Below, in pieces: positions 51,174-62,225 of a DNA stretch of 64,000 nucleotides. The number at the start of each line of letters is the position of its first letter. Position 1 is the stretch's first letter. Source of the stretch: Streptosporangiales bacterium (lineage in GTDB: Bacteria > Actinomycetota > Actinomycetes > Streptosporangiales > WHST01). The position numbers were made by a program, and so were the translations under genes. The notes beneath the pieces were generated by a model, which had not been told where the DNA came from, did no database searches, and saw nothing but the letters and a program-made list of their open reading frames with translations. The DNA lies in NCBI GenBank assembly GCA_009379825.1, contig WHTA01000005.1, forward strand, positions 1 to 64,000, in the 5' to 3' direction.

Positions 51174-52541
51174 ATGACCACGACACCAGAAGCGATCACC
51201 GTCGCACTCACCGGCGACAGCATCATCACCCGCCGGGTCCCGGCCGACCTGGACGAACCGACGAGACGACTCGTCGCGCTACTCCAGCAGGCGAACGTCT
51301 CGTTCACCAACCTCGAGGTCCTGCCGAACGACTTCCAGGGCTACCCGGCGGTGGAGAGCGGCGGTACGCATCTCGCGGCACCCTCGTGGGTGCTGGACGA
51401 GCTGGTGGCGATGGGCTTCGACCTGTTCGGCTGCGCCAACAACCACGCGCTCGACTACAGCATCGAGGGTCTGTTGGCCACGATGCACGAGCTGGAACGG
51501 CGTGGCCTGCCCTACGCGGGGGTCGGCCGGACACTCGCCGACGCGCGGATGCCCGCGTACGTGGACCATCCGAACGGCAGCGTGGCCATGCTTTCGTGCA
51601 CGTCGACGTTCGCCAAGAGCCAGGTCGCGGGCGAGCAACGTCCGGAGATGCAGGGCAGGCCGGGACTCAGCCCACTGCGTTACCAAGCCGTCTACGACGT
51701 GACCCCGGAGCAGCTCAGCCAACTGCGCAAGATCTCCGCCGACCTCGGACTCGACCGGCAACAACAGGAGCTCATCGACATGGGCTTCGCGTTCGCGCCC
51801 ACCGATCCGGAGATCTTCCAGTTCAAGGAGGCGAATCTCCGCACTGCCGGTCAGCTGGACGCGAGCTTCCGTGCCGCCGACCACACCGCGGTTTCTTCCA
51901 CGCCGCACGAGGGCGACACCGACGCCCTCACCACGTGGGTGCGCGAGGCACGAGCACGCGCGGACGTCGTCATCGTCAGCCTGCACAGCCACGAACAGGG
52001 CGACGACAAGGAGGAGCCGGCGAGCTTCGCCAGGGACTTCGCCCGCCGGATGATCGACGCCGGCGCGGACGTCGTCGTCGGGCACGGACCACACCTGCTG
52101 CGTGGCATGGAGCTCTACGACGGCAAGCCGATCTTCTACAGCCTAGGCAACTTCATCGGCCAGAACGAGCTCGTGCAGAAGCTGCCGGCGGACTCCTACG
52201 AACAGTTCCGGGTGGACCCCACGCAGACACCGAGCGCTGTCTTCCGTTCCCGCACCGACAACGACCGCAGGAGCTTCCCTGCGGACGCACGCTTCTGGGA
52301 GACGATCGTGCCCGTCTGCCGGTTCTCCGGCGGCGAGCTCGTCGGCATGGACCTGACGCCGGTCTCGCTGCGGCACGGCGAGCGGGCGTACCGTCGTGGG
52401 CGTCCCCGGTTGGCCATGGGGGCGGAGGCCGAGGCCATCATGTCGCGATTCCACCGACTGTCCGCAGCGCTCGGCACCGAGGTGTCACAGTTCCCGCCGC
52501 TCGCGCAGAAAGTCGTTGCGGGCGCCGGAGGAGATCCGTAG
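51174..52541 (+). CDS. CapA-family (poly-gamma-glutamate synthesis CapA-like) protein
   Basis: 455 residues. The CapA fold, a relative of metallophosphatases, is shown by GDSIITRR (14-21), TNLE (45-48), ANNHALDY (88-95), then SLHSHEQ and VVGHGPHLLRGMELYDGKPIFYSLGN (read in pieces). CapA/PgsA proteins help build or anchor poly-gamma-glutamate, but no signal peptide or membrane helix is present here, so this member is cytosolic and probably a hydrolase of gamma-linked or phosphorylated peptides. Weak ribosome site before ATG 51174. Placed at the end of a peptide-uptake operon. Confidence 0.85.
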   Translation: MTTTPEAITVALTGDSIITRRVPADLDEPTRRLVALLQQANVSFTNLEVLPNDFQGYPAVESGGTHLAAPSWVLDELVAMGFDLFGCANNHALDYSIEGLLATMHELERRGLPYAGVGRTLADARMPAYVDHPNGSVAMLSCTSTFAKSQVAGEQRPEMQGRPGLSPLRYQAVYDVTPEQLSQLRKISADLGLDRQQQELIDMGFAFAPTDPEIFQFKEANLRTAGQLDASFRAADHTAVSSTPHEGDTDALTTWVREARARADVVIVSLHSHEQGDDKEEPASFARDFARRMIDAGADVVVGHGPHLLRGMELYDGKPIFYSLGNFIGQNELVQKLPADSYEQFRVDPTQTPSAVFRSRTDNDRRSFPADARFWETIVPVCRFSGGELVGMDLTPVSLRHGERAYRRGRPRLAMGAEAEAIMSRFHRLSAALGTEVSQFPPLAQKVVAGAGGDP

Positions 52542-53629: not shown

Positions 53630-53655
53630 GTTTACCCATCACCCGGGCTGGGTAG
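53630..53655 (+). promoter_or_regulatory. SigB/SigF-type promoter of the membrane protein-hydrolase operon
   Basis: GTTTAC (53630-53635), 14-base spacer, GGGTAG (53650-53655), against the SigB-family consensus GTTTAA-N12-14-GGGTAT (5 of 6 in each box). The first gene starts at 53687, 32 bases downstream, after AAAGGAGG. Confidence 0.65.
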
Positions 53656-53686: not shown

Positions 53687-54127
53687 GTGGAACCGGCCGC
53701 ATTGATCTTCCTCGCGACCGGCATCGTCGTGGTGGCCGTGGTCGGCTGGCTGATGATGTTGACCGGCCGCAGGTACGTCGGCGGCGCAGGGGGTGCGGGT
53801 AGCAACGTCGGTTCGGTCGCCGGGCTGTTGGCGGTGGTGTTCTTGTTGGTGACGCTCGGCATCACCGCGCTGATCACCGTGCTGCCTGTCGGCGACGGCG
53901 TGTCGGGATACCTGGTACGGCTCGGCATCCTGCTGGTCGTTCTCGGGTTGGTCTACGGCGTCTTCGTCGGTGCGCTCGCCCGGCGTCGCGAGGTCGCCAT
54001 CACCGAGGCCGCGCTGGCGGAGGCACAGGAGCAGGAGAAGCCACACGAGCCGCCCTCCAACCCCAGCGTGCCGACGCACTCACCGAGCTACCTCCCACCG
54101 AGCGGGCTGCCCGGCGACGGCACGTGA
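53687..54127 (+). CDS. Membrane protein, three-helix
   Basis: 146 residues from GTG 53687 with AAAGGAGG ahead. Membrane helices at about 5-24, 42-65 and 77-97, then a charged tail (LARRREVAITEAALAEAQEQ) and a Pro/Ser-rich end. A Gly-rich YVGGAGGAGSNVGS loop lies between helices 1 and 2. Family not recognised. First gene of a three-gene operon under a SigB-type promoter, so expected to be induced with the sigma factor encoded at 60486. Its stop overlaps the next start by 4 bases. Confidence 0.75.
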   Translation: MEPAALIFLATGIVVVAVVGWLMMLTGRRYVGGAGGAGSNVGSVAGLLAVVFLLVTLGITALITVLPVGDGVSGYLVRLGILLVVLGLVYGVFVGALARRREVAITEAALAEAQEQEKPHEPPSNPSVPTHSPSYLPPSGLPGDGT

Positions 54128-54948
54128 CCATGACCGGCACGCAGAGGGAGGCGACCGCCGAGGCAGCCGGTTCCCGCGGCCGGCGCTGGGCGACGGTCGC
54201 CACCCGGCGCTTCGGACGCCGCCTCGCGATCACGGACCTGACCGCCGCGGTCCACGCGAGGACCATGGGCGACGGCGCGGACGTCGTCATCGTCCCAGGG
54301 CTCGCGGTCTCCGCCTACCTGTACGAGACCCAGGAACGGCTGGCGGCCCTGGGCCGGGTGCACCTGTTGGAGCTACCGGGTGTCGCCGGCGGGCGCGACG
54401 TGCCCGGTACACCGACGCTGCGGGACGACGCGGCGGCCGTCACGGAGTGGTTGCGGACAAGACTTCGGCGGCCCGCCATCGTGGTCGGTCACTCGTACGG
54501 GACGCAAGTCGCCGTACGAACGGCGGCCGCCGACGACACGTTCGTCGCAGGTCTTGTCCTCGCCAGCCCCACCGTCGACCCGCGCTACCGGTCGCTGCGG
54601 CGGCTGTTGTGGGCCTGGCGTGCGGACGCCAGGACGCACCCCGAGGGGCTCGTCGAGGTCAACCGCCCCCAACAGCGACGGGCCGGTCTCGGCCGCGTCT
54701 GCGCGATGGGGGTATCGATGCTCGCCGACGCACCGGAGCGGTGGCTGGCGCAGGTCGCGGTGCCGCTGACGGTCATGGTGGGCAGCCGCGACGCGCTCGG
54801 CACCGAGGCCTGGGGACGGCGACTGACGGACCGACCGAACGGCAGGTACGTGCGCGTCGAAGGTGGTACGCACACGTTCCCGTTCGAGTGTCCCGAGGCG
54901 TTGGTGCGTACGGTTCGAGTCGACATGGGAAAGGACACAGAGCAATGA
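54124..54948 (+). CDS. Alpha/beta-fold hydrolase
   Basis: 274 residues. The nucleophile elbow GHSYGTQ (Ser ~126), the preceding DVVIVPGLAVSAYLYE oxyanion strand and the C-terminal GGTHTFPFE His complete the hydrolase triad; the acid is probably Asp in MVGSRDALG. ATG 54124 overlaps the membrane-protein stop. Serine hydrolase, cytosolic; substrate unknown. Co-transcribed with the unrecognised protein that follows (4-base overlap), which may modify the same compound. Confidence 0.87.
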   Translation: MTMTGTQREATAEAAGSRGRRWATVATRRFGRRLAITDLTAAVHARTMGDGADVVIVPGLAVSAYLYETQERLAALGRVHLLELPGVAGGRDVPGTPTLRDDAAAVTEWLRTRLRRPAIVVGHSYGTQVAVRTAAADDTFVAGLVLASPTVDPRYRSLRRLLWAWRADARTHPEGLVEVNRPQQRRAGLGRVCAMGVSMLADAPERWLAQVAVPLTVMVGSRDALGTEAWGRRLTDRPNGRYVRVEGGTHTFPFECPEALVRTVRVDMGKDTEQ

Positions 54949-56363
54949 GCACCCTGGCACCAGAACGCGCGGTGGCGAGTTTCGACTCGGCAAGCGCGTT
55001 CCTCCGAGTTACGGCGCACGCCCTGCGCGGCGAGAGCTTCCCCCACCTCGGGCGGGGCCGGCTGCGCGCGTTGCCGACGCGCTACTCCACGCTGCTTCCA
55101 CGTACCGTGCGCCGCACTGCGTACGGCGTGTTCGGCGGCGTGGACGGGATCCCCGCGCGCCGCCTCGGCGACGTCGACATGGAGACCGTTGCGCAGTGGG
55201 TGGTCGAGCACTACGGCGAGGACAGCTACCCCGGCGTGGTCATCGGCTCCCCGAACGGCGCTGCTGCGCATCTCTGCGCCGAGACCGGGATGCCGTTCCT
55301 CCCGCAGACGCTGCTGATCCCGGTGCGTTGGGAGGGCAACGACCCCGACCACGGGATCGAGGCGATGGAGCGCGGCAGGAGGATCGCCGGTCCGCTGCTC
55401 GAGAACAACCCGGGGATCGTGCTGCACCACATGCACGACGGCAACCAGGACCGGCTGATGATCCAGCACATGACGTACTTCCGGCTGAAGTGGCGCCAAC
55501 TGCCTGCGGCCTACGAGCGCTTCCTCGCGGAGCGCCTCGCACCTGAGGCGCCGATCATCTTCCTCGCCGACGACTCCACCTGGCCGACGACCAGGATCGA
55601 CGATCGCCACTTCTTCCAGGCAGGCGCGCGCGGCGGACTCAACGCCAGCGAGTACACCGAAGGCTCCCCGCGGGTCGCGAGCTACTTGCAGGAGCACGGT
55701 TCTGCGCACACCCAGTTCCAGTCACCGAAGCCGGATGGCGTGAGCGCGGAGGCCGAATGGGGGTTCGACGCCAGGATCGCGGACGACATCAGCTCACGGG
55801 CCAGCGAGCTGTCGCATCCGGTGGTCACCATGCACGTACCGGAACCGCAGGCACTGTCGGGACCCACCGCACGCCTGCTGCGGCAACGGTTCAGGGACGC
55901 AGGCGCCGACGGCGACCGGCTCGTCGTCGAGTCGTTCCTCATGGTCGACCCGGTAGAGGTACGCAGGAGCGGTTCTGTGCCGTTCTGGAGCTACTTCCCC
56001 GTCGAGGAGTCACTGACCCACTGCGCGGAGCACGTCGAGCGCGCTGCTCGCGCCGGCGACCCGTACCGGGACGTCGACGTCCTGCTGTTCCCCCACGGGG
56101 TCGCGTCGGTCGGCGCGACCAGCCCGAAGGACTGGGCGGAGCGGCTACGCGACCACATCAGCGGCAAGGTGCGGTTCGTCTCCGGCACTCCAGAACGTTG
56201 GCCTGCGCACTTCGACGCGCTGGCGAAGTACGGCACTGCGCTGGGCCAGCTCGCCGACCAACCACAACCCGGCGAGCGGCTGCCGGTGGAACAGATGCTG
56301 GAGCGGGTCGCCGGTGACGCCGTCCGCCTCGACTCCCTGCCGGAGCGCTTCGCGAGGCGGTGA
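54945..56363 (+). CDS. Unrecognised conserved-looking protein of the stress operon
   Basis: 472 residues. I do not recognise it. Visible are a Ser/Ala N-terminal helix, SYPGVVIGSPNGAAAHLCAE (an active-site-like Gly/Ser loop near 103-118), ETGMPFLPQTLLIPVRWEG, HHMHDGNQDRLMIQHMTYFR (His-rich, possible metal site), FLADDSTWPTTRIDDRHFFQ and a C-terminal half with VDVLLFPHGVASVGATSP. No signal peptide or membrane helix. Intact and codon-typical. Its start overlaps the hydrolase stop (ATGA) and it converges with the baeRF2 gene 9 bases away. The His and Asp clusters suggest an enzyme, but nothing more can be said. Confidence 0.75.
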   Translation: MSTLAPERAVASFDSASAFLRVTAHALRGESFPHLGRGRLRALPTRYSTLLPRTVRRTAYGVFGGVDGIPARRLGDVDMETVAQWVVEHYGEDSYPGVVIGSPNGAAAHLCAETGMPFLPQTLLIPVRWEGNDPDHGIEAMERGRRIAGPLLENNPGIVLHHMHDGNQDRLMIQHMTYFRLKWRQLPAAYERFLAERLAPEAPIIFLADDSTWPTTRIDDRHFFQAGARGGLNASEYTEGSPRVASYLQEHGSAHTQFQSPKPDGVSAEAEWGFDARIADDISSRASELSHPVVTMHVPEPQALSGPTARLLRQRFRDAGADGDRLVVESFLMVDPVEVRRSGSVPFWSYFPVEESLTHCAEHVERAARAGDPYRDVDVLLFPHGVASVGATSPKDWAERLRDHISGKVRFVSGTPERWPAHFDALAKYGTALGQLADQPQPGERLPVEQMLERVAGDAVRLDSLPERFARR

Positions 56364-56372
56364 CCCGCCCGG

Positions 56373-57500
56373 TTACCCGTGCGCCTGTGCCGGGTCGTGC
56401 GAGTAACGCAGCAGGGCCGCCACACCGTCGCGATGGCCGATGCTTCCCGGTTCCACGAACGCCAGGTCGGCATCGGTCGTCGCCGCGGCACCGACGAGCG
56501 CGGCGGTAGCCGGCACCTCGACCTGGTCGGTCGCTCCCATCTCGGCGAGCGCGGCGGCGTCGCGGGCGAGCAGGTGGATATCGTCGCCCATCCACAGTGC
56601 CGGCAACCGCTCGACGGCGCCGTCGTCCTCCAGGAGCACCGTGTCGACCTGGGCCTTGCGCAGACAGCCGACCGTCGCGTCCAGGCCGGCGGCGGCGCGT
56701 TCGCCCTGTCCGAGCTGTTCGCGGAACGCCTCGAGCCGACCGGCATCGTCGGCGGCCGCCCGTGCGGCGAGCACCTCGTCCACCTCCTCGTCGACGGGGC
56801 GTGCGCCGCGGTGCCGGCTGCCGACGTCGAGCTCGACGAGCAGCTCCTGCACGCCGGGCGGTGCCACGGCATGGAAGTTCGCCTTCGCCTGCGGGTCGCC
56901 GGCGAGCACGACCACCTCGGCGGCGACGGTCTTGACCAGCTCGGCGACGCGGTCGACGACGACCTTCGCGTTGTGCTGTGTCACGTTCTCGACCCGCTGG
57001 TGGATCCTGCGGTGTGACCAGCCGCCGCCCCGCACCTTGTGCAGCGGATGCGTGTCTCCTTCGACCGCGGTGTCCACCACGTCCGACCGGCCGCGGATCT
57101 GGATGTCGGCGCCCGCCGCATCGACGTTGACGACGAGACACGGCAGCTGCGTTCGCATGGAACGCAGGAGCGGCAACACCTCCGGCAGCTTGCCCCAGGT
57201 CGCCGTACTGGTACCGGGATGCGCGTGGAAGTACTCGTCGAGCAGCAGCTCGCCACCGGCTGCGACGGCGACCTGGCCTTGCGCACCCCCCTCCGCCGGC
57301 GGGGTCGCCACGGCGCAGTCCAGTGCGCGCAGCGTGTCCTCGTCCGCGCCCGCGGCACGCAGCTCCGACCGGACGCCCCGCCAGCGCAGGCGCACCGCAT
57401 GCTCAGCGTCGCCGGCCTCGCGGCCCGCTTCCAGCGTGACGCTGGCGAACGGCCCGCGAACCGAGTACAGCGGCTTGAGGAAGTCGAGATCCAACGTCAC
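56373..57500 (-). CDS. baeRF2-domain protein (Rv2629-like, eRF1-related)
   Basis: 375 residues from GTG 57500 (MTLDLDFLKPLYSVRGPFAS). The bacterial/archaeal eRF1-related family 2 is recognised by FASVTLEAGREAGDAEHAVRLRWR, LPCLVVNVDAAGADI, KVRGGGWSHRRIHQRVENVTQHNA and VVVLAGDPQAKANF, then LRKAQVDTVLLEDD. Mycobacterial Rv2629 is a dormancy-regulon member; ribosome rescue or peptide release is proposed for the family but not proven. Last gene of the minus-strand stress operon, overlapping the small gene before it by 4 bases. Confidence 0.88.
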   Translation of the reverse strand: MTLDLDFLKPLYSVRGPFASVTLEAGREAGDAEHAVRLRWRGVRSELRAAGADEDTLRALDCAVATPPAEGGAQGQVAVAAGGELLLDEYFHAHPGTSTATWGKLPEVLPLLRSMRTQLPCLVVNVDAAGADIQIRGRSDVVDTAVEGDTHPLHKVRGGGWSHRRIHQRVENVTQHNAKVVVDRVAELVKTVAAEVVVLAGDPQAKANFHAVAPPGVQELLVELDVGSRHRGARPVDEEVDEVLAARAAADDAGRLEAFREQLGQGERAAAGLDATVGCLRKAQVDTVLLEDDGAVERLPALWMGDDIHLLARDAAALAEMGATDQVEVPATAALVGAAATTDADLAFVEPGSIGHRDGVAALLRYSHDPAQAHG

Positions 57501-57751
57501 GGCCGCACCTCCGGTTTCTTGCGGGCCAGCTGGTCGGGTTCGGCCGGATCCTCCCCTGCGATCCGGCCGACGAACGTGCCGCTGCCGCCGGTGCTCGTCG
57601 TGGTGCCGGCGGCACGCGGGCGGTCGCCGGTGACCCGGCTCAGCGCTTGGTGCCGGTCGGCTGCCACGTCGGCCTCGGTGCCGCGCCGTACAACCAGGCG
57701 GTCGCGCAGCGCCGCGAGACGGCGCGCCAACCTCGTCAGGAGTCCACTCAT
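57497..57751 (-). CDS. Small hypothetical protein in the stress operon
   Basis: 84 residues from ATG 57751. Basic N-terminal helix (GLLTRLARRLAALRDRLVVRRG), then a disordered Thr/Gly/Pro segment (AGTTTSTGGSGTFVGRI) and a charged end (LARKKPEVRP). No family recognised. Lies 9 bases after the DUF3140 gene and overlaps the baeRF2 start (GTGA), so it is translated with them. May be a partner peptide of baeRF2. Confidence 0.6.
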   Translation of the reverse strand: MSGLLTRLARRLAALRDRLVVRRGTEADVAADRHQALSRVTGDRPRAAGTTTSTGGSGTFVGRIAGEDPAEPDQLARKKPEVRP

Positions 57752-57760
57752 GCCGCTGCC

Positions 57761-58096
57761 CTACCCCGCCTTGATCGGGTCGTGTCCGACGTTCATCAAG
57801 CGGTACTTGCGGCGCTCGTCGGAGATCAGCTCGCCGATCGACTGGCCCTCGGTCTCGTCCTCGACGATGGCGATGACCCGCCACATGGTGTCGACGTCGT
57901 CAGTGGTGAGATCCATCCGCCGCTTGCGCAGGATCTCGAGCACCGCCTCGCCTAGCGGTGGTGCCTTGCCGGCCGGGTCGGCGACGAGCTCCTTGCGCTC
58001 ACCCAACCAGTCCGTCAGTTCCCGCGAGGTCATGTTGACGACCTCGTGGAAGCGTTCCCATACCTCGTCGACGGGTACTTCCGTGTCGCGCTTCAC
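57761..58096 (-). CDS. DUF3140 family protein
   Basis: 111 residues from GTG 58096 (VKRDTEVPVDEVWERFHEVVNM) with GGAGGG upstream. VNMTSRELTDWLG and the C-terminal SDERRKYRLMNVGHDPIKAG are DUF3140 features; the middle has GEAVLEILRKRRMDLTTDDV. All-helical and probably DNA- or protein-binding; function unknown. Fifteen or fewer bases separate it from its neighbours on both sides. Confidence 0.85.
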   Translation of the reverse strand: MKRDTEVPVDEVWERFHEVVNMTSRELTDWLGERKELVADPAGKAPPLGEAVLEILRKRRMDLTTDDVDTMWRVIAIVEDETEGQSIGELISDERRKYRLMNVGHDPIKAG

Positions 58097-58536: not shown

Positions 58537-60333
58537 CTACGAGCGGGACCTCGGCCCGGCGAGGACCTCTTGCAGCTTTGCCTTCACGCCTTCCTTCAGC
58601 ACGCCCCATCGGTCGCTGTCGCCGCGGACGATGGACTCCAGTGCGTTCTCCATCTGCTCCCAGGTGGCGTGCGGCGGGATCGGCGGCACCGCTGGGTCGG
58701 TCACGAACTCGAGCAGACACGGCCGGTCGGCGGCCAACGCCTGCTCCCAAGCGGTCTGCACACCGCCGGGTTCCTCGACCTTTATGCCGCGCAGGCCGAG
58801 CACCCGGGCGTACTCGGCGTACGGGAAGTCGGGAATCTGTTGCGACGGCAGAAACTGCGGCGCACCGCCCATCGCCCGCAGCTCCCAGGTGACCTGGTTG
58901 AGATCCTGGTTGTTCAGCACGCAGACGACGAGCCTCGGGTCGTCCCATTCGGTCCAGAACTTGCCGACACTGATCAGTTCGCTGATGCCGTTCATCTGCA
59001 TGGCGCCGTCGCCCACCAACGCGACGGCAGGCCGGTCCGGGTGCACGAACTTGGCACCCACGGCGTACGGCAGCCCCGGGCACATGGTGGCGAGGTTGCC
59101 GGACAGCGACCCGCGCATCTGGCCCCCGAACTTCAGGTGACGCGCGTACCAGTTCGCGACCGAACCCGAGTCGGCCGTGACGATCGCGTCGGACGGCAGC
59201 ATCGGGGACAGCTCGTGGAACACGAGCTCGGGGTTGATCGGGTCGGCGGAGACGCCTGCGCGGCGTTCCATCACCTCCCACCAGCGGGCGACGTCCCTCT
59301 CGATCCGTTCCCGCCACGACCTGTCCTGCTTCTTCTCGAGCAGCGGCAGCAGGCCGGCGAGCGTCGAACGCGCGTCGCCGACGAGGTTCACCTCGTACGG
59401 GTACCGCATGCCGACGAGCGTGGGATCGCGCTCGATCTGCACGCCGCGCGCTCCGTCGAGATCCGGCAGGAACTGGGTGTAGGGGAAACTCGAGCCGACG
59501 GTCAGCAAGGTGTCGCAGTCGCGCATCATCTCGTAGCTCGGCCGGGTGCCGAGCAGGCCGATGGCACCCGTGACGTACGGCAGGTCGTCGGACAGCACGT
59601 CCTTGCCGAGTAGTGCCTTGGCGACCCCGGCGCCGAGCACGTCGGCCACCCGTTCGACCTCACGCGCGGCGTCCGCGGCGCCCTGCCCGATGAGCATTGC
59701 GACCCGCTCGCCGGCGTTGAGGATGTCCGCAGCTCGCTGCAGGTCGTCGTCCGCCGGCCTGGCGGCCGGCTGCGACATGCCAAGGCTCGACGGCACCATC
59801 ATGAACTCGTGCGTCGGCGGCGAGTAGTCGAGTTCCTGCACGTCTTCAGGAATGATGACGGCCGTCACCGTCTGCCGGGCGAGCGACGTCCGGATCGCGC
59901 GATCCACGACGTTGGGCAGCTGTTCCGGCACGGTGACCATCTGCACGTAGTCGCTGGCGACGTCCTTGTACAACGACAGCAGGTCGACCTCCTGCTGATA
60001 GCTGCCGCCGATCGCGCTGCGGTGGGTCTGGCCGACGATCGCCAGCACGGGAGTGTGGTCCAGCTTCGCGTCGTAGAGGCCGTTGAGCAGATGGATCGCG
60101 CCGGGACCGGACGTCGCGGCGCACACCCCGAGACGCCGGGAGAACTTCGCGTAACCCGTTGCCTCGAAGGCCGACAGCTCTTCGTGCCTGGACTGCACGA
60201 AGCGTGGCGAGTCACCCGCGCGTCCCCAGGCGGCGAGCAACGCGTTGATCCCGTCACCCGGGTACCCGAAGACGTGTTCGACTCCCCACTCCCGGAGTCG
60301 TTCGAGCAGGTAGTCGGCGACGGTATGCGGCAT
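58537..60333 (-). CDS. Thiamine-pyrophosphate enzyme, PoxB-like pyruvate oxidase/dehydrogenase
   Basis: 598 residues from ATG 60333 (MPHTVADYLLERLREWGVEH). TPP N-terminal domain with the catalytic Glu in SRHEELSAFEATGYA, the FAD-type middle domain (LIGQGAADAAREVERVAD), and the TPP C-domain with VGDGAMQMNGISEL and NNQDLN (the GDG-N25-30-NN Mg/TPP motif). PoxB proteins decarboxylate pyruvate to acetate and CO2 at the membrane in stationary or stressed cells. First gene of a five-gene operon under a SigB-type promoter (60377-60401) divergent from the sigma gene. Confidence 0.9.
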   Translation of the reverse strand: MPHTVADYLLERLREWGVEHVFGYPGDGINALLAAWGRAGDSPRFVQSRHEELSAFEATGYAKFSRRLGVCAATSGPGAIHLLNGLYDAKLDHTPVLAIVGQTHRSAIGGSYQQEVDLLSLYKDVASDYVQMVTVPEQLPNVVDRAIRTSLARQTVTAVIIPEDVQELDYSPPTHEFMMVPSSLGMSQPAARPADDDLQRAADILNAGERVAMLIGQGAADAAREVERVADVLGAGVAKALLGKDVLSDDLPYVTGAIGLLGTRPSYEMMRDCDTLLTVGSSFPYTQFLPDLDGARGVQIERDPTLVGMRYPYEVNLVGDARSTLAGLLPLLEKKQDRSWRERIERDVARWWEVMERRAGVSADPINPELVFHELSPMLPSDAIVTADSGSVANWYARHLKFGGQMRGSLSGNLATMCPGLPYAVGAKFVHPDRPAVALVGDGAMQMNGISELISVGKFWTEWDDPRLVVCVLNNQDLNQVTWELRAMGGAPQFLPSQQIPDFPYAEYARVLGLRGIKVEEPGGVQTAWEQALAADRPCLLEFVTDPAVPPIPPHATWEQMENALESIVRGDSDRWGVLKEGVKAKLQEVLAGPRSRS

Positions 60334-60376: not shown

Positions 60377-60401
60377 CTACCCACGCGATCCGGGACGAAA
60401 C
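60377..60401 (-). promoter_or_regulatory. SigB/SigF-type promoter of the poxB-like operon
   Basis: On the minus strand GTTTCG (60401-60396), 13-base spacer, GGGTAG (60382-60377), a good match to GTTTAA-N12-14-GGGTAT. The poxB-like start is 43 bases further along. Confidence 0.65.
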
Positions 60402-60417
60402 GGGGTCTCCAGTTCCG

Positions 60418-60441
60418 GTTGAACGATGTACGGTGGGGAAT
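60418..60441 (+). promoter_or_regulatory. SigB/SigF-type promoter of the sigma gene itself
   Basis: GTTGAA (60418-60423), 12-base spacer, GGGAAT (60436-60441): five of six in each box of the SigB consensus. It lies 44 bases before ATG 60486 and suggests positive autoregulation. Confidence 0.6.
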
Positions 60442-60485: not shown

Positions 60486-61247
60486 ATGACGACGTCAACC
60501 GACATGCAATGCACTGATGCGGAGCTCTTCGGACAGCTGGCTTCCGCCGCCGACGAAGGAGCCAAGGAACGCGCTCGCGAAGTAATGGTGGAGCGGTACA
60601 GCTGGCTGGTGCGCTGGGCGGTGAACAGATACACCGGCCGCGGCGAGCAGACCGAGGAGCTCGACCAGGTCGGCTATCTGGGCCTGATGGAAGCCATCCA
60701 AAGGTTCGACGCCGGACGCGGGGTCGACTTCGTCACCTTCGCCCGGCCGACCGTGCTCGGCGAGATCCGCCGCCACTTCAGGGACAGCCGCCGCTGGGTA
60801 CGGTTGCCGCGCCGGATCCAAGAGCTGAAGATGCAGATCAAGGAAGCCTCGGAGCAGCTCTGCCAGGAGAGGGGGCACCAGCCCTCCGCGGCGGAACTGG
60901 CCGCGCACCTGGAGACGAGCGAGCGGGCGGTCGAGGAGGCGCTGGCGACCGACGACACGTTCTCGCCGCTCTCCCTCGACGCGCCCGTCAGCGACGAGGA
61001 GGAGGCCGCGACCTATCTGGACACGCTCAGCGACGACGACCAGGACCTGGAGAGCGTCGTGGACACCGAGTCACTGTGGCCACTTGTCGAGCGGCTGCCG
61101 GAGCGCGAGCAGGAGATGGTGCTGCTGCGCTTCTACGGGAACAAGACCCAAAGCGACATCGCCGATCAGCTCGGCATCTCACAGATGCACGTGTCGCGCC
61201 TGCTCAACCAGACGCTCAGGTCGCTGCGCGAGGAGCTGGTCGCGTGA
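60486..61247 (+). CDS. SigB/SigF/SigG-family RNA polymerase sigma factor
   Basis: 253 residues with regions 2, 3 and 4. Region 2: LVRWAVNRYTGRGEQTEELDQVGYLG and FDAGRGVDFVTFARPTVLGEIRRHFR (2.3-2.4); region 3: ELKMQIKEASEQLCQERGHQPSAAEL; region 4.2: NKTQSDIADQLGISQMHVSRLL. Length and QVGYLGLMEAI place it with SigF-like stress factors. No anti-sigma or anti-anti-sigma gene is adjacent, unlike typical rsbW/rsbV-sigB loci, so its control must be encoded elsewhere. Likely drives the two flanking operons whose promoters match its expected consensus. Confidence 0.92.
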   Translation: MTTSTDMQCTDAELFGQLASAADEGAKERAREVMVERYSWLVRWAVNRYTGRGEQTEELDQVGYLGLMEAIQRFDAGRGVDFVTFARPTVLGEIRRHFRDSRRWVRLPRRIQELKMQIKEASEQLCQERGHQPSAAELAAHLETSERAVEEALATDDTFSPLSLDAPVSDEEEAATYLDTLSDDDQDLESVVDTESLWPLVERLPEREQEMVLLRFYGNKTQSDIADQLGISQMHVSRLLNQTLRSLREELVA

Positions 61248-61491: not shown

Positions 61492-61583
61492 GACGGGCAC
61501 CCTCCTTTCGGTCCGCACGAGTGTCCCCTACCCTGCCAGGCCCACTCGATGCAGTCGCGACCCTTCCCACAGAGGAGGACGCC

Positions 61584-62225
61584 ATGTCGGCATCCAGGGA
61601 GAGGCAAATCCGTACGTTGCTCGACCGACACGGTCAAACCTACGCAAGCCAGGCCAAGATCGGCCTGGCGGACAAACCCGCACCGCTGTTCCAGCACCTG
61701 GTGCTGTCGCTGCTGCTCTCCGCGCGGATCAAGAACGACATCGCCGTCGCCGCGATGCGGGCACTACTCGACGCGAAGCTCACCACGCCGGCGAAGATGG
61801 CCGACGCGACGTGGGCGCACCGCACCAAGTTGCTGAACCGGTCGGGCTACGCGCGCTACGACGAGAGCACGTCCAGGATGCTCGGCGACACGGCCGAACG
61901 GGTGCGCACGCAGTACGGAGGCGACCTGCGCAGGCTCCGCGCCGCCGGCGACGGTGGCGTCACGGCGCTGCGGAACCTGGTGAAGGAGTTCAAGGGCATC
62001 GGCGACGTCGGCGCCGACATCTTCCTGCGCGAGGTGCAGGGCGTCTGGCCGGAGGTACACCCGTTCGTCGACGCCAAGGCGGCGCAGGGCGCGCAGCTGC
62101 TCGAGCTGCCCACGGAACCCGGCCGGCTGGCGAAGCTGGTCGACCGCGCGGACTTCCCACGGTTGGTCTGCGCGTGCGTACGGGTGACGTTCGCGAAGGA
62201 CGCGGCGGAGGTCAAGGCCGCGTGA
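61584..62225 (+). CDS. HhH-GPD-type DNA glycosylase/endonuclease III-like protein
   Basis: 213 residues from ATG 61584 with AGGAGG ahead. A helix-hairpin-helix KGIGDVGAD (137-145) followed by the segment ending HPFVD with Asp163 fits the GPD-loop catalytic Asp of base-excision DNA glycosylases. The N-terminal helices (FQHLVLSLLLSARIKNDIAVAAM) are EndoIII-like. No four-Cys Fe-S loop is present at the C-terminus (only one Cys, LVCACV has two). Repairs damaged bases; fits the stress island. Confidence 0.82.
   Translation: MSASRERQIRTLLDRHGQTYASQAKIGLADKPAPLFQHLVLSLLLSARIKNDIAVAAMRALLDAKLTTPAKMADATWAHRTKLLNRSGYARYDESTSRMLGDTAERVRTQYGGDLRRLRAAGDGGVTALRNLVKEFKGIGDVGADIFLREVQGVWPEVHPFVDAKAAQGAQLLELPTEPGRLAKLVDRADFPRLVCACVRVTFAKDAAEVKAA

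Follow-up and report, generated by a model that had tools for sequence, protein, structure and literature searches.

The closest described counterparts of the locus studied here are the operons of the actinobacterial SigB/SigF general stress regulons. The promoter consensus that we used for these regulons follows PMC8346170 and PMC4694148. We analyzed a 64,000-nucleotide stretch of a Streptosporangiales genome (contig WHTA01000005.1, positions 1 to 64,000; referred to as the window), in which a preliminary description had drawn attention to an unrecognized protein of 472 residues. Like operons of the SigB/SigF regulons, the operon encoding this protein has the promoter pattern GTTT-N-GGG[AT]A upstream, and it lies beside genes for a SigB/F/G-type sigma factor, a thiamine pyrophosphate (TPP) enzyme, and a ribosome-hibernation-type factor. 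The features of the region are as follows.

53630-53654, forward strand: SigB/SigF-type promoter-like site of the form GTTT-N16-GGGTA, 32 nt ahead of the operon's first gene
53687-54127, forward strand: small protein of 146 aa, first gene of the operon, with hydrophobic stretches by eye
54124-54948, forward strand: alpha/beta hydrolase of 274 aa, the partner gene (Pfam Abhydrolase_6, E = 7.9e-17), with an intact Ser-Asp-His triad
54945-56363, forward strand: unclassified protein of 472 aa, with its start within an ATGA shared with the hydrolase stop
56373-57884, reverse strand: open reading frame (ORF) with a baeRF family 2 domain, convergent neighbor of the 472-aa gene; the start is probably later than the ORF start
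57761-58051 (approximate), reverse strand: DUF3140 gene, with the domain lying C-terminally in a longer ORF
58537-60330, reverse strand: thiamine pyrophosphate-requiring (pyruvate oxidase-like) enzyme (NF006129, 991 bits, cut-off 724), with the start set at the ATG of ORF residue 57
60378-60401, reverse strand: promoter-like site of SigB/SigF type, preceding the TPP-enzyme gene by 47 nt
60417-60440, forward strand: SigB/SigF-type promoter-like site matching a looser pattern and preceding the sigma gene by 45 nt
60486-61247, forward strand: SigB/SigF/SigG-family sigma factor (TIGR02980, 256.9 bits, cut-off 234.35)

The 472-aa gene is the last of three genes (53687-56363) that we regard as a tightly packed operon because both of their junctions overlap. 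The sequence AAAGGAGG lies just 5' of the start of the 146-aa protein, for which no Pfam family was found above the cut-off. The stop of this small gene overlaps the GTG taken as the hydrolase start by 4 nt, and a single ATGA holds both the hydrolase stop (54946-54948) and the start of the 472-aa ORF (54945-54947), which are read in different frames. The overlap with the hydrolase was therefore as the preliminary description had it, but the interval that it quoted for the protein (54124-56363), while containing the ORF, also spans the hydrolase. Its placement of the gene "in the stress operon" holds in part: the gene ends an operon of its own, and the sigma factor and TPP enzyme are separate units, yet SigB-type promoter-like sites precede all three. 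The ORF is coding, with 31 to 58% identity to relatives over most of its length (28% for one divergent sequence). Substitutions per codon position relative to the nearest relative were 0.295, 0.252, and 0.446, highest at the third position.

Among the neighbors, the baeRF ORF is akin to the Rv2629-family ribosome hibernation factor, with a score of 264 bits that is below the NCBIfam cut-off of 320. Farther out in the window, a PGA_cap-family protein (51174-52541) shows a resemblance, at 421 bits (cut-off 700), to MslH, a lasso peptide Trp epimerase. Next to it are what by eye look like a gene for a GntR-like regulator and an operon for a peptide ABC transporter. On the other side, a 234-aa protein (61521-62225) had no Pfam or NCBIfam match; a relative of it adjoins the broken copy of the 472-aa family gene at locus L053 (E = 1e-72).

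To characterize the promoter-like sites, we counted pattern matches in the window and in related loci. There were two exact matches to GTTT-N12-17-GGGTA in the 64 kb, compared with 0.25 expected, and 3 of 100 shuffled sequences reached two. The looser pattern occurred in five places, three of which are the sites before the operon, the TPP gene, and the sigma gene. For the relatives, we used 47 distinct stretches with an upstream hydrolase, after dropping one locus (L111) where the contig cuts the gene. Of these 47, 11 had the looser pattern in the 200 nt preceding the hydrolase, and the other 36 did not. In the controls, the pattern was found in 1 of 47 on the antisense strand and in at most 1 of 46 to 47 for each of 12 shifted windows on either strand. 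The operon in the window falls outside the 11 because there the promoter is ahead of the small gene that comes first. An EcfG-type promoter was considered for the Pseudomonadota and rejected, with 5 upstream versus 4 antisense matches over all loci; one EcfG-type match lies about 440 nt before a cytochrome P450 fragment in Rhizobium. Together, the promoter-like sites and controls support the assignment of the operon to a predicted SigB/SigF-type stress regulon.

The claim that the protein matches no known family was borne out by every library searched. We found no family for it in Pfam, NCBIfam, PHROGs, or PADLOC. Searches against the PDB returned no match by sequence and only noise by profile, the best being an acetylxylan esterase (E = 0.27, not significant) around the GSxNG loop. 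When 28 members of the family were scanned against Pfam, they likewise matched no family; the best hit was Esterase, with an E value of 0.011 in 2 of the 28. A degenerate alpha/beta hydrolase was rejected, because GxSxG is missing and hhalign gave a probability of at most 7% against the partner hydrolases; the loop reads mostly G-S-x-N/S-G, with P, T, S, A, G, or C at position 103 among relatives. Internal duplication of two domains found no support either (probability 0.4). No account of the family turned up in the literature searched. These results support a new protein family, unclassified in every library tried. Alignment A1 of the family leaves out L005, whose match contains a TGA, as well as L010, L012, L013, and the two-frame L009/L014, and alignment A2 further omits the near-duplicate L017. 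A 58-sequence table is without L053, L056, and L057, which are broken or partial, and 5 of the 71 conserved columns are gap columns.

Structure prediction was confident (AlphaFold; pLDDT 91.8 and pTM 0.92 for the whole protein, 93.5 and 0.90 for domain 1, residues 1 to 292), and neither it nor the profile searches led to a family: Foldseek against the PDB gave no match at E ≤ 0.001 for the whole model or for domain 1. With the whole model, ferrochelatases and metal-binding proteins led at E values of 5e-3 or worse, a probability of 0.16, and low TM-scores. With domain 1, an RNA methyltransferase led (E = 6.8e-3, probability 0.12), and methyltransferases were among the top matches, again insignificantly. 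With regard to class I methyltransferases and their SAM-binding motif, the family has no conserved acidic residue ahead of the Gly loop. VIA, in which unmatched models typically reach a best Z of 7 to 8 according to the tool, placed 7acy_B on top for the whole model (Z = 9.1, 204 residues, 3.9 Å), followed by a related entry at Z = 8.1 and the next at 5.2. Domain 1 alone had no VIA match at Z ≥ 5 among 998 chains (best Z = 3.4, 114 residues, 14.5 Å), and domain 2 (residues 295 to 439) had weak alpha/beta matches with Z of about 4 to 5, none of them prominent. BFVD returned one match for the whole model at an E value of 8e-4 with a TM-score of 0.16, as well as a 132-column match to an uncharacterized Marseillevirus fragment (probability 1.00, E = 2.7e-3). 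From the predicted models, we conclude only that no known fold can be assigned to the protein, which leaves room for distant relatives.

The family is real, patchily distributed in the Actinomycetota, and also present on plasmids of Pseudomonadota. The window's genome has a single copy. Relatives were found in 13 of 61 near genomes, in 12 of 396 genomes of the phylum, and, for the order, in 50 of 297 genomes from 17 of 62 genera; the order count includes broken copies and several genomes with fragments only. The family also occurs in Kutzneria, Halosaccharopolyspora, Kribbella, Streptoalloteichus, and Phytoactinopolyspora. Among 72,556 plasmid records, five have the gene, and three of the five come from Burkholderiales and Rhizobium, with 90 to 95% of the query covered; the Caballeronia, Paraburkholderia, and Rhizobium plasmid copies have 33 to 37% identity. 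Two of these plasmid copies sit among general-stress-type genes. A phage origin was rejected, with the family in none of 50,697 phage records. The many broken copies in the order show that the gene is dispensable. Broken or frameshifted copies were seen in genomes G003, G524, G646, G590, G671, G578, G493, G456, and G031; some such genomes are one- or few-contig assemblies, which reads as frequent loss of an accessory gene.

The preliminary description had coupled the protein to an alpha/beta hydrolase, and comparison across loci upheld this. Counting the window, a same-strand hydrolase of one subfamily lies directly upstream of the family gene in 49 of 61 loci, although some of these are near-duplicates and the count is uncorrected for ancestry. 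The spacing ranges from a 22-nt overlap to an 84-nt gap, often a 4-nt overlap, with distances taken to the start of the profile match rather than to the start codon. In six more loci (L020, L042, L052, L053, L055, and L056) the hydrolase is elsewhere in the fetched stretch, and the fetched stretches of the other six (L045, L047, L057, L060, L116, and L117) showed none. Both genes are present in 12 of 61 genomes, the family protein alone in 1 (a broken copy), the hydrolase alone in 7, and neither in 41. The hydrolase was therefore present in 12 of 13 genomes with the family protein versus 7 of 48 without it (Fisher P = 3.3e-7, a significance inflated by shared ancestry). One genome (G049) retains both genes even though 1.6 Mb separates them. 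Distances among hydrolases and among family proteins were also correlated (r = 0.88, 48 pairs, 0 of 2,000 permutations), again inflated by shared ancestry. Adjacency, genomic co-occurrence, and correlated divergence strongly support a tie, both physical and phyletic, between the family and one hydrolase subfamily.

The partner hydrolase has an intact triad: S124, D223, and H250 are invariant in 12 of 12 aligned sequences, and in a wider set one partner (L038) is without the triad His. Other genes accompany the pair. An SDR gene is directly upstream in several loci, and just 3' of SDR-hydrolase-family clusters there is a second protein of about 530 to 545 aa (L036:7431-9017, L037:4325-5941, and L041:4307-5941); no Pfam family was found for those of L037 and L041, the two scanned. 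On the Rhizobium plasmid, a P450 fragment rather than a hydrolase overlaps the family gene from upstream. That fragment (L060:9078-10001, plasmid pR132503) is a 308-aa protein whose match to the cytochrome P450 profile is confined to the C-terminal part of that profile.

Two of the motifs within the 472-aa protein are GSPNGA (101-106) and HHMHDGNQDR (161-170). The preliminary description had singled out this Gly/Ser loop and His-rich patch, and both are present and mostly conserved in 29 aligned sequences. In the loop, G101 is found in 29, S102 in 26, and G105 in 28; in the patch, H161 is found in 25, H162 in 22, H164 in 26, D165 in 28, Q168 in 28, and D169 in 28. Active sites of alpha/beta enzymes are placed in loops just past strand ends. 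In the predicted structure, residues 101, 164, and 209 of domain 1 and residues 330, 349, and 380 of domain 2 are strand ends, and several of the conserved motifs are in loops right after predicted strands.

A paralogue provides a second view of these residues. One genus carries this type, near full length and at 69 to 100% identity, in 32 of 37 genomes. The paralogue's loci share the window's neighbors: the gene order aeRF, TPP enzyme, paralogue, and sigma gene was found in 8 of 9 loci, the ninth being cut by the contig with the paralogue and sigma gene visible. A stress-type promoter site precedes the paralogue in 9 of 9. There is no hydrolase of the subfamily within the nine loci. Of 20 genomes of the genus that were searched, 7 have a related hydrolase elsewhere, so site loss does not exactly track hydrolase loss. 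One paralogue (L045) retains 44 of the 71 highly conserved columns. Residues replaced in 9 of 9 paralogues are D14, N104, Q121, T122, H161, D165, N167, Q168, D169, Y178, R180, K182, E269, W272, and H384. Those retained are W85, Y90, G101, S102, P117, P120, H164, W213, Q225, G227, G231, E271, R313, R325, P346, W348, G385, W397, and P420. In the 12 pairs compared, the rate of change at third codon positions of the paralogues is about double that at first and second positions, which argues that these are not decaying genes. FDS (13-15), N104, LPQT (119-122), HHMHDxNQD (161-169), YxRxK (178-182), E269/W272, and H384 would form one functional site. This is strongly suggested by co-loss on a single evolutionary branch, since most of these residues disappeared jointly in the paralogue clade and the fold residues stayed. 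The His/Asp patch falls within this set, and two of its three His, H162 and H161, vary among relatives. As a separate observation, the paralogue in these aeRF-TPP-paralogue-sigB clusters (L045 and L128 to L135) may regulate or report on the sigma factor.

We propose, with a probability of roughly 0.58, that the family consists of probably cytosolic two-domain alpha/beta proteins that act in a stress-sigma-controlled module with one subfamily of serine hydrolase. From residue conservation, we infer that the protein is probably an enzyme. A catalytic role through metal, with the His/Asp patch serving a metal-dependent hydrolase as earlier suggested, appears improbable from the sequences: H164, D165, and D169 are nearly invariant, as such a site would have them, but the variation at H161 and H162, the lack of any metal-hydrolase family in profile searches, and the retention of H164 in a paralogue that lost the rest of the patch all speak against it. 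It is also possible, although we lean against it, that the protein is a hidden, divergent member of a known superfamily, with a class I methyltransferase-like, alpha/beta hydrolase-like, or chelatase/binding-protein-like fold or that of the C. difficile S-layer chain. The Esterase and acetylxylan esterase hits, the Foldseek matches to an RNA methyltransferase and ferrochelatases, and the VIA match to 7acy_B are weak hints in this direction, but every match is below significance and they disagree with one another; hhalign against the partner hydrolases and the VIA search with domain 1 were similarly unrewarding. Such hidden membership is compatible with the proposed module, and both can hold.

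The remaining alternatives concern the pairing itself. The protein could be a non-catalytic partner that binds the hydrolase as a scaffold, chaperone, or regulatory subunit, with the conserved patch as the binding surface. Tight gene pairing and correlated divergence fit such a partner, as does the signature-less paralogue, whose persistence in 32 of 37 genomes under apparent purifying selection implies that the fold is useful without the site. We nevertheless consider it unlikely: the residues that were lost, in large part of catalytic type (D, H, Q, K, R, and E), lie in several separate loops, many just past predicted strands, as active-site residues would, the hydrolase is far from the family gene in G049, and the Rhizobium copy without an adjoining hydrolase keeps the signature, with 67 of the 71 columns conserved at ≥90%. 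Mere co-transfer of stress-island neighbors with no biochemical link would account for the patchy spread and for plasmid copies among general stress genes. It is very improbable, given that the subfamily and, usually, the order and short overlaps stay constant over two phyla while other neighbors change, and that G049 retains both genes at a distance.

If the stress-controlled module is as proposed, the active site of the 472-aa protein would be at strand ends, near the cleft between its two Rossmann-like domains. The protein might make or modify a small compound of acyl type for subsequent cleavage by the hydrolase, or the order might be reversed, and this step would be part of metabolite turnover under general stress. 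A two-step metabolic module acting on an acyl-type compound is the simplest reading of a dedicated serine hydrolase, an SDR gene in several loci, and stress control. A bolder version, which we regard as speculative and on balance doubtful, is that the family represents enzymes of a new kind, which have a two-domain fold of their own and a site made of FDS, LPQT, HHMHDxNQD, YxRxK, and ExEW. Such an enzyme would catalyze a stress-metabolic step with the dedicated hydrolase, and the site-less pseudoenzyme of one genus, having become fixed behind a stress promoter between the genes for the TPP enzyme and the sigma factor, may now be a sensor or regulator of the stress response. The new enzyme class that the preliminary description had raised as a possibility is, on the sequences, unproven. 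Were the protein an enzyme, it would represent a new family and perhaps lead to a new stress metabolite. An unclassified protein tied to one hydrolase subfamily across two phyla offers a testable way into a part of bacterial general stress regulons that lacks an explanation. The signature-less paralogue is a natural control, which predicts the site residues and can separate site-dependent from site-independent functions.

Compared with known systems, the protein shares individual traits with several. The C. difficile SLPH/SLPL chain 7acy_B is its top whole-model VIA match, but the identity is 12%, the chain is absent among the 50 Foldseek matches listed, and it is a surface protein. Domain 2 weakly matches Rossmann-like periplasmic-binding and SGNH-like alpha/beta folds, a likeness that shows a common arrangement only. 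The alpha/beta hydrolase superfamily is represented by the partner gene, with its intact triad and Abhydrolase_6 domain, whereas the 472-aa protein is without GxSxG and without a significant profile or fold match. The operon resembles those of the SigB/SigF regulons in promoter and neighborhood, but differs in having a 472-aa component that belongs to no described family. In its type, combining a stress sigma factor, a hydrolase, and a small operon, the module is already known; what sets it apart is a protein family that stands unclassified.
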